A model generated the notes under the pieces. The model was not told the DNA's origin. It searched no databases and saw only the letters and a program-made list of their open reading frames with translations. This document shows, in pieces, positions 13,269 to 62,218 of a DNA stretch of 64,000 nt. Every line of letters starts with the position of its first letter. Within the stretch, counting starts at the first letter, position 1. The translations under genes and the position numbers were made by a program. This DNA is from an uncultured Enterobacterales bacterium (GTDB lineage Bacteria; Pseudomonadota; Gammaproteobacteria; Enterobacterales; CALYQQ01), in the NCBI GenBank assembly GCA_945288535.1, contig CALYQQ010000001.1:124001-188000 (forward strand), read 5' to 3'.

Positions 13269-13291
13269 AACAGCAACCATTGGTTGCTGTT
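13269..13291 (+). terminator. Hairpin terminator after fldA
   Basis: Perfect 10-base arms AACAGCAACC and GGTTGCTGTT enclose ATT. Only a short T-containing tail (CTTATATT) follows, so it may terminate moderately. It lies 30 bases after the fldA stop. Confidence 0.6.
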
Positions 13292-31316: not shown

Positions 31317-32861
31317 ATGACTAAATTCTTATTATCACATCCTGTCATATGCTATATCATAGCCCTATTGCTAGGTATTTTGGGCGTATTTGCCTTTTCT
31401 CCCTTTGATTTATGGCCATGTGCATTTATTTCTATTACTGGTTTATTAATTCTTCCTCTTAATCAGAGCATAAAGCAAGCTGCGGTAATTACCTTTTTTT
31501 GGGCATTAGGTTTATTTGGTATAGGTTTCTACTGGATTTATATTAGTATACAACAATTTGGTAATATGCCACCCATTGCTGGTATAGGCATGATCCTGTT
31601 ATTGGCCGCCTATTCCTCCATTTACCCTATCCTTTTTTCTGTATTGTTGACATATTTTTGTGCAACCGCGTCATTAATGCGCTTTATCATTATTGCACCA
31701 GCACTTTGGCAATTAACAGAATTTTTGCGCAGTTGGGTAATGACAGGATTTCCTTGGCTTCAATTTGGTTACAGTCAAATTGATGGCCCTTTAAAAGGAT
31801 TAGCTCCTATAGCTGGAGTTGAAAGCATTACTTATATAATATTTATCATATCAGGATTGATCACCTACAGTATTTACCGTAAAAAATGGTATTATACTGT
31901 CATAGCTCTACTTATAATCCTTGCATTATGGCCATTAAAGTATTTGGTCTGGTTCAAAATTGATCCTTATCGCTCCGTTAATATTGCTTTAGTTCAAGGT
32001 AATATTAGCCAACGCCTAAAATGGCTGGCTAATGAACGTGAAAGCATATTAAAAACATATTTAGATAAAACACGCGCTTATTTAGGTAAAAGTCAAATCG
32101 TTATATGGCCTGAAGCGGCTGTACCAGATCTTGATATTTATCAAAATGACTTCCTTAGCACTTTAGATATGTTGGGACGTGAACATAATACTGCAATACT
32201 CACGGGTATTATTGAAGCAAAAACGAATGGTGTTCGTCCCATTTATTATAATTCACTTATTGTATTAGGTGATAAAATTCCTTATAGCGTGTTTAATGAA
32301 AATCGTTATAGAAAACATCATTTAGTTATATTTGGTGAATATGTTCCCCTAGAAAAAATTTTACGTCCTATAGGTAATTTTTTTAATCTGCCAATGTCAT
32401 CAATTAGTAGTGGTGAAGCGTTACAACCACCACTTCACGTTGCTAATTATAAACTGACTCCTGCAATTTGTTATGAAATTATTAAAGGTGAGCAAATTCG
32501 TAAAAATTTTCAGCCTGATACAGATTTTTTACTCACTATTTCAAACGATGCATGGTTTGGAAATTCGATTGGTCCATGGCAACATTTTCAAATAGCCAGA
32601 ATGCGTGCTCTTGAATTTGGTCGACCATTATTACGAGCAACGAATACGGGTATTACCGCGTTTATTGATCCACAAGGTAATATAATCAAGAAATTACCTC
32701 AATTTGAACGTAACGTTTTAATGCAAACTATTGCGCCAACGCATGGTTTAACGCCTTACGCTAAATTCGGCTATTTTCCTTTATGGATCATCACATTAAT
32801 GATGTTAGTAGGAGGTATATCCATTACCTATCGTAGCAAGAAAAGAGCATCTAACACGTAA
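31317..32861 (+). CDS. lnt: Apolipoprotein N-acyltransferase
   Basis: Inner-membrane enzyme that adds the third acyl chain to lipoproteins such as LptE and RlpA. Several N-terminal membrane segments are followed by a nitrilase-fold periplasmic domain with the catalytic glutamate in WPEAAVP, lysine in ENRYRKHHLV and cysteine in AICYEII, then a last membrane segment. 514 residues (E. coli 512). A long AT-rich hairpin follows its stop. Confidence 0.96.
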   Translation: MTKFLLSHPVICYIIALLLGILGVFAFSPFDLWPCAFISITGLLILPLNQSIKQAAVITFFWALGLFGIGFYWIYISIQQFGNMPPIAGIGMILLLAAYSSIYPILFSVLLTYFCATASLMRFIIIAPALWQLTEFLRSWVMTGFPWLQFGYSQIDGPLKGLAPIAGVESITYIIFIISGLITYSIYRKKWYYTVIALLIILALWPLKYLVWFKIDPYRSVNIALVQGNISQRLKWLANERESILKTYLDKTRAYLGKSQIVIWPEAAVPDLDIYQNDFLSTLDMLGREHNTAILTGIIEAKTNGVRPIYYNSLIVLGDKIPYSVFNENRYRKHHLVIFGEYVPLEKILRPIGNFFNLPMSSISSGEALQPPLHVANYKLTPAICYEIIKGEQIRKNFQPDTDFLLTISNDAWFGNSIGPWQHFQIARMRALEFGRPLLRATNTGITAFIDPQGNIIKKLPQFERNVLMQTIAPTHGLTPYAKFGYFPLWIITLMMLVGGISITYRSKKRASNT

Positions 32862-59771: not shown

Positions 59772-60668
59772 TCAATTGTTATTTTCTATTTCTACAATAG
59801 TTGTTGATGATCTAAAAGTTAAAATAGCACCAATAGAAGCAATAACAATTGCGCTAAGTGCTAACCATTGTATTAACGTTAACCTTTCCCCTAAAAATAA
59901 AAGACCGCATAAAGCGCCAATAACAGGCTCCATACTCATTAAAGTACCGAATGTTTTAGAAGGTAAACGCGTTAATGCTGTCATTTCCAAGGTATAAGGA
60001 ATTGCTGTCGATAATAATGCCACACAAAATGCTAAACGCCATACCGAAGAAGATAAAATTACCTGATAGGAATAAAATAAAGCAACAGGCAAAATCAATA
60101 TTGCACCTAATAAAGTGCCTAATGCAACGGCTGACGTGCCAAAATATTCACCAACACGTTTGCCAAAAAAGATATAACATGCCCAGAAAAAACCTGCTAT
60201 TAAAGCAAATATAGCCCCAATGGGATCAATTGCATTTATTGATTCTCTTAATGGTAAAAGAAAGTATAAGCCAATTACCGCTAAAATCACCCACATAAAA
60301 TCAATTGGCTTTCTCGATGCCAAAAGCGCAACAGTTAATGGTCCAGTAAACTCCAATGCCACTGCAATACCAATAGGAATACGTACTAATGCATAGTAGA
60401 ATGATAAATTCATAACAGCAAGTGAAATGCCATATCCTATAAGCATAATAAGATTTATTTTATTAACTTTCCATTTTGACCATTTTCGCCAAGGCCGCAA
60501 TAAAAACAGCAGTATAAATGCACCAAATGCAATGCGTAGCGCAGTCATTTCTAATGGTCCCATTATATAAAAAAGTGATTTTGCTAAAGATGCACCACTT
60601 TGGATTGAGAACATAGCAATAAGAATGATAACTACAGAAAATAATGTAGAGTTTTTATTATATGGCAT
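59772..60668 (-). CDS. rhtA: Threonine/homoserine exporter RhtA (EamA family)
   Basis: Ten-segment inner-membrane exporter with two EamA halves. Recognised by SIQSGASLAKSLFYIMGP, GPLEMTALRIAFGAFILL, PIGIAVALEFTGPL and TRLPSKTFGTLMSMEPVIGA, as in E. coli RhtA (295 residues; 298 here). GAGG nine bases upstream supports the start. Single-gene unit. Confidence 0.93.
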   Translation of the reverse strand: MPYNKNSTLFSVVIILIAMFSIQSGASLAKSLFYIMGPLEMTALRIAFGAFILLFLLRPWRKWSKWKVNKINLIMLIGYGISLAVMNLSFYYALVRIPIGIAVALEFTGPLTVALLASRKPIDFMWVILAVIGLYFLLPLRESINAIDPIGAIFALIAGFFWACYIFFGKRVGEYFGTSAVALGTLLGAILILPVALFYSYQVILSSSVWRLAFCVALLSTAIPYTLEMTALTRLPSKTFGTLMSMEPVIGALCGLLFLGERLTLIQWLALSAIVIASIGAILTFRSSTTIVEIENNN

Positions 60669-60940
60669 TAAAAATAGCCTCTGAAAACAAAGAATAACAT
60701 ATACATAATTTAATAATATACTATGGCTGAGTGCCTATATCTACAGCGATTATAGCCATTGCTCTTTTATTATATTAAATAGTAGATAATAATATCTTAT
60801 TCAGTAGACTTATTTGAATAATTTTATTGCTATAACCATTATCGTTACCATTAAAAATGGTTAGATATGATATCTATCATTACTTTAATTGGTTATTCAA
60901 ACACCTTATATGGACGTTAGATTAGATACCTGATTATATA

Positions 60941-60954
60941 TTGATCTATATCAA
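60941..60954. promoter_or_regulatory. FNR box (perfect match)
   Basis: TTGATCTATATCAA equals the FNR consensus TTGAT-N4-ATCAA with perfect symmetry. A class II FNR promoter reading right would start near 60989, with GATTAT (60978-60983) as a -10 element matching four of six bases. Alternatively it could act on rhtA, whose start is 273 bases to the left. Confidence 0.55.
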
Positions 60955-60988
60955 GTAAATATAATTTACCACTGACTGATTATTGCCA

Positions 60989-61090
60989 ATATTATATGTT
61001 AAGCTATATTAGCACAGGTACAATTTGGATTTGGCACTAAAAGCCTATTTATCCTATATCCCCCGCATCACTTTTTAGGTGCGGTTTTTT
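60989..61090 (+). ncRNA. Candidate FNR-activated small RNA
   Basis: From the start predicted by the FNR box to the end of the terminator is about 100 bases, a usual small-RNA size. Only a 14-codon frame with no ribosome site lies inside. It has an unpaired-looking pyrimidine-rich stretch (TATCCTATATCCCCC) before the terminator. I do not recognise FnrS, ArcZ, RybB or CyaR in it. Prediction only. Confidence 0.4.
61063..61090 (+). terminator. Rho-independent terminator with no upstream gene
   Basis: CCGCA (61063-61067) and TGCGG (61080-61084), then six T. Orientation is rightward; the nearest plus-strand gene upstream ends at 51360, so it must end a non-coding or lost transcript. Confidence 0.75.
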
Positions 61091-61555
61091 CGTTACTCTT
61101 TTGACCGTAGTGACTAAAAAATAATAATGACCATTAAATTATTATTATTTTATGCATAATCAGTACAGCATAAATTATTTTATTTACTGGCTAAAAAATG
61201 CTTTTTTTTACCATATTTTAAATAAGCACCGTTGTTTTCCGTTGATGATAAACGATTAAACTACTTAATTAAACTCCATTGATCACGCATGGCGTAAGTA
61301 ATAGATAATATAAAGCATATTATTTAATTAGCTATACTGCCAATGACAAAAGACATTTATTAATAATATGTTTATATTTACTATTGTATATAGTTAAATG
61401 TGTTATTTGATAAATTAAATAAGAATAAATCCTATCAATTAAAATTTTTATATCGTAATTACCAGCAATTTTTCTCTGTCTCTTTACTTAAATTCCTTGT
61501 AATCAATGACTAAATTATATTTTAGTAGATCAATTTATTAATTATCAATTTGATA

Positions 61556-62218
61556 TCAGATTACTGCGTATGTTTTAATTAATTCCATAATTCCATTAAT
61601 GATAAACTGTACACCCATACAAACTAATAAAAACCCCATGATACGTGAAATTGCATCTATACCATGTTGGCCAACTAAACGCATAATTGCACCAGCTCCT
61701 CTTAGTCCAGCCCACAAAATTAAACTAATCAACATAGGGACTAATAAGGATGAACAATATATTACATAGGGTGAAAAATCTGTTTGGCCACTTCTAATTG
61801 TCGATGCAGCACTAATAATCATAGCGATTGTTCCTGGACCTGCCGTGCTGGGTATTGCTATTGGCACAAATGCTATATTTATCGACTCCGTCGTATTTAA
61901 CTGCGGTATATTATTTGCAACAGGTTGTTTTGCTAATGGAAACAACATCCTAAAACCAATAAAAGAAACAATCATTCCACCTGCAATGCGTAATCCTGGG
62001 ATGGATATACCAAAAATATTCATGACTAATTGACCACAGTAAAAAGAAATAACCATAATCATGAATACATAGATTGAGGCCATAAGCGCTTGATGATTTC
62101 GTTGTTTATCTGACATTTCACCCGATAATGCTAAAAAAAGGGCTATTGATGTTAATGGATTAGTTAAGGGTAATAACACGAGTAACCCTAATCCTATTGC
62201 ATGAAGTAATTCAAACAT
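61556..62218 (-). CDS. marC: MarC-family inner-membrane protein
   Basis: Six-segment membrane protein of the UPF0056/MarC family; the function is unknown, and a role in multiple antibiotic resistance was not upheld for E. coli MarC. Long near-identical blocks: [58 protein letters not shown] and [20 protein letters not shown]. 220 residues (E. coli 221). AAGGAA upstream of the ATG. Confidence 0.94.

Follow-up and report, generated by a model that had tools for sequence, protein, structure and literature searches.

The locus and its elements

The window, by which we mean the whole 64,000-nucleotide stretch of DNA analysed here, contains an 887-base gap (60669-61555) between an rhtA-like gene and marC, and this gap holds an FNR box, a predicted promoter and an intrinsic terminator. 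The features of the locus are as follows:

59772-60668, minus strand: flanking gene of the EamA family, near RhtA (threonine/homoserine exporter), scoring just under the family cut-off
60941-60954 (centre 60947.5), palindromic: perfect FNR box TTGATCTATATCAA, a full match to the FNR consensus
60960-60965, plus strand: perfect TATAAT read from the sequence, its role judged from geometry
60978-60983, plus strand: predicted -10 element GATTAT, a 4/6 match, 23 nt after the box
60990-61062, plus strand: predicted RNA body (~73 nt) with two weak hairpins and a C-rich single-stranded 3′ part (CCUAUAUCCC)
61063-61090, plus strand: intrinsic terminator CCGCATCACTTTTTAGGTGCGG-TTTTTT, with a 7-bp stem (five G-C pairs), an 8-nt loop and six T
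61556-62218, minus strand: flanking gene marC

An earlier note on this DNA had described a symmetric TTGAT-N4-ATCAA site, a reasonably spaced -10, about 100 bases without a gene and a clean stem with six T. This description was borne out on every point: the site is the perfect box, GATTAT follows it at the distance given above, no open reading frame of 20 amino acids or more lies within 60941-61090, and the GC-rich hairpin stands ~100 nt downstream of the box with no gene between.

The terminator, which folds at −11.1 kcal/mol with a z-score of −3.9 against shuffled sequences, is the firmest part of the unit, while the body without it has no more structure than shuffles (fold z 0.18) and so lacks a structural signal of its own. 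When the whole window was scanned for terminators with an energy cut-off, only nine hairpins passed, and the one at 61063-61090 is among the stronger. Both flanking genes lie on the minus strand, which leaves this plus-strand terminator without a recognisable gene to end. Nearby, an A+T-rich hairpin with an A-run on one side and a T-run on the other (61118-61153) could terminate marC, which runs on the minus strand. Elsewhere in the window, a strong minus-strand hairpin and its short T-run (13271-13289) sit between fldA-like and fur-like genes and point against both.

The unit might be thought to encode a very small protein, for example from a frame of 14 codons that begins with the ATG at 60996 or from a TTG frame that ends in the terminator loop. 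Such open frames are visible in the sequence, and a few bases before the TTG frame stands an AGG; however, the interval contains no frame of at least 20 codons and the ATG has no ribosome-binding site, and we find a coding function here hardly credible.

Counting from GATTAT, transcription is predicted to start at ~60990, which places the box centre at −42.5, a class II position upstream of this predicted start. Judged by its geometry, the perfect TATAAT at 60960-60965 appears to lie too near the box for class II activation, and bound FNR would be expected to block it. As the box is palindromic, it may instead serve the minus strand, in which case FNR would control a transcript running toward the rhtA-like gene, and the terminator would be a relic or have nothing to do with the box. 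There is a minus-strand TATAAT just past the box, and the start of the rhtA-like gene is 273 bases from it, but the best class II -10 in that direction matches at only 3/6 positions, the transcript would have to carry a long leader of ~230–260 nt and there would be no explanation for the plus-strand terminator; we regard control of this gene as improbable.

FNR and its sites in the genome

The genome to which the window belongs (2.52 Mb in 29 contigs) encodes a true FNR protein, scoring 492.7 bits against NF008365 (cut-off 228) and carrying Cys20, 23, 29 and 122; an Hfq gene is also present.

A perfect box is by itself not rare at genome scale: there are 34 in the 2.52 Mb, against 15 occurrences of a reversed control pattern that serves as a rough background only. 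About two thirds of the 34 boxes lie within coding sequence, and any single box may therefore still be due to chance. When the 68 orientations of these boxes were scanned for a terminator at a distance of up to 260 nt, just two cases remained, and only the box at 60941-60954 is intergenic; the other lies inside a coding region, which we take to be ftsH, with the terminator at the end of that gene.

Several perfect boxes stand where FNR sites would be expected. The reverse complement of the TTGATCTATATCAA box occurs upstream of focA-pflB (contig C1, 47240-47253; locus L065, 1501-1514), another perfect box precedes an ndh-like gene, and a third lies before grcA (contig C20, 7753-7766; locus L130, 1501-1514) at class II spacing, with a TATAAC -10 element 22 nt after the box. 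The identity of GrcA was confirmed by TIGR04365, whereas focA, pflB and ndh are names that we presume from the starts of the proteins. All of these genes are under FNR control in E. coli, and the boxes before them make it very likely, at the level of sequence, that FNR uses this type of box in the present genome; the grcA box with its -10 element is well suited as an internal control for FNR promoters here. The focA-side box is located within the terminal part of a YcaO-like gene; 370 bases separate it from focA, and pflB comes next. Another perfect box, 67 bases upstream of an SLC13-type carboxylate permease-like gene (contig C1, 100373-100386; locus L066, 1501-1514), marks that gene as a possible FNR target. 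A second perfect FNR-type box in the window (32131-32144), inside a coding region that reads as lnt-like, is probably there by chance.

Chance could also account for the box at 60941-60954 even if a small RNA or other short transcript is real: the box might be fortuitous or no activation site, and expression might be constitutive or governed by a different regulator, for example via the TATAAT at 60960. The reversed-pattern control would predict ~15 perfect boxes genome-wide, many of the observed ones are inside genes, and the perfect TATAAT is present along with other, overlapping promoter-like sites. Nevertheless, this box is intergenic, has fnrS-like spacing and is identical, as the reverse complement, to the focA-pflB box, and we consider a transcript independent of FNR unlikely, if still a serious alternative.

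Chance of the layout and conservation

As a null model for the layout, the 887-base gap was shuffled 4000 times with its dinucleotides preserved (8000 shuffled strands). A perfect box arose in 22 strand-hits (11 palindromes), three of them with a class II -10, while none of the 8000 strands combined a box with a terminator of this kind; a terminator of such quality was found nowhere in 1000 shuffled strands.

Searches with the core of the unit returned nothing beyond short chance pieces in 395 genomes of the order and no match covering the core in 44 genomes from the family whose MarC is most similar; E. coli genomes, viral contigs and plasmids gave no match. The kilobase upstream of each of 58 RhtA-like loci contains no FNR box. 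In relatives, marC has different neighbours (ssb and kdsB-like genes, or other genes), which means that the orthologous gap does not exist there, as opposed to having diverged. The lack of a long-range core match would fit a young small RNA and would also fit a sequence without function. That the elements came together by coincidence, forming no functional unit, is a reading to which the absence of core matches in the 395 genomes and the 44 lends something, but the terminator is far beyond its shuffles and the joint layout never arose by chance, and we judge coincidence very improbable.

Two sets of partial matches were set aside. Weak DNA matches to 60975-61021 in another genome (G055) and in the genome itself (L002, L003), with E-values of ~1e-4 to 1e-3, were treated as chance, given that they are A+T-rich, have unrelated upstream sequence and, by eye, fall on in-frame membrane-protein codons. 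Matches to the terminator in a further genome (G216; L080, L083) involve a related hairpin with different flanks, and amount to resemblance of the terminator only. On contig C8 of G216, these near-identical terminator hairpins recur at a distance of 479 bases and surround short genes, apparently repeated cassettes.

Comparison with FnrS and other anaerobic small RNAs

The earlier note had stated that the sequence does not resemble FnrS, and covariance and nucleotide searches agree. The Rfam model RF01796 (frnS) gave no match in the window at the gathering score, nor near the locus at E-values up to 10; a search of the whole genome with the same model found no match, with a positive E. coli control. 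The locus matched no Rfam family, and blastn of the core against six fnrS loci from other genomes produced chance matches only. FnrS has the conserved 5′ sequence GCAGGTGAATGCAACG, whereas the RNA predicted here begins UAUUAUAUGUUAAGC.

In layout, on the other hand, the locus shares with FnrS of the Enterobacteriaceae a free-standing intergenic unit of ~100–120 nt, a single FNR box at −42.5 and an intrinsic terminator. The box centre lies at −42.5 from GCAGG in all six of the fnrS loci, an agreement that is geometric only, since the start at the present locus is predicted and not mapped. For E. coli fnrS itself, the FNR site is placed at −42.5 in a ChIP-seq table (PMC3688515) and is cited at −41.5 elsewhere (PMC3032703). 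The two differ in that the box is perfect here and degenerate in fnrS, the GC content is lower here and the U-run has six residues here and eight in fnrS. As judged from sequence, the locus is FnrS-like in layout yet outside the FnrS family (RF01796).

Other bacteria have anaerobic small RNAs of their own. A small RNA called fnrS in Neisseria gonorrhoeae, for which anaerobic induction was shown experimentally, has no sequence homology to E. coli FnrS and was proposed as its functional equivalent (PMC3032703). It has in common with the present locus a class II FNR site, a small transcript and a terminator, features that are predicted here from sequence; it belongs to a different lineage, and the likeness is one of description and not of sequence comparison. 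PaiI of Pseudomonas aeruginosa is an anaerobically induced small RNA reported to depend on NarXL and nitrate (PMC5703892), unlike the FNR control proposed here.

Proposed function

We favour the reading that the locus is an FNR-activated, free-standing small RNA gene of ~100 nt, and think it probable. The architecture of a small-RNA unit claimed in the earlier note is well supported by the box, the fnrS-like class II geometry, the orphan terminator, the FNR protein and FNR-type sites at the expected genes; its proposal of an anaerobic small RNA stands as regards this architecture and is weakened by the lack of a core match elsewhere in the order. Against an FNR-activated small RNA we also count a -10 element that matches at only 4/6 positions, a core that folds like shuffles, and the short U-run and lack of an outstanding target described below.

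Under anaerobic conditions, dimeric [4Fe-4S] FNR would bind the box at 60941-60954 and activate RNA polymerase at a class II promoter, presumably through the -10 element at 60978-60983. Transcription would begin near 60990 and be terminated by the hairpin with its T-run (61063-61090), which would yield a product of ~100 nt. If this RNA acts as FnrS does, its 3′ end may bind Hfq, and the RNA may base-pair with mRNAs of oxygen-linked genes and lower their translation. Typical Hfq-bound RNAs have a longer U-run than the one seen here, in which six residues are followed by CG. A duplex scan against 121 gene starts revealed no outstanding target, and the two superoxide dismutase (SOD) genes were unremarkable.

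The small RNA is best read as analogous, and not demonstrably homologous, to FnrS, and its predicted features make the locus a good candidate for a non-homologous addition to the known class of FNR-activated small RNAs. It is conceivable, though we hold this only tentatively, that a lineage-specific FNR-activated small RNA unrelated to FnrS fills the role of FnrS in a lineage without fnrS, the circuit having arisen independently. If real, the locus would be a further case of FNR driving a small RNA that has no sequence relation to FnrS, and would suggest a repeated origin of the FNR-to-small-RNA circuit. A sample of 248 genomes from the order yielded frnS in just two families, which makes lineages without fnrS natural places to seek replacements.
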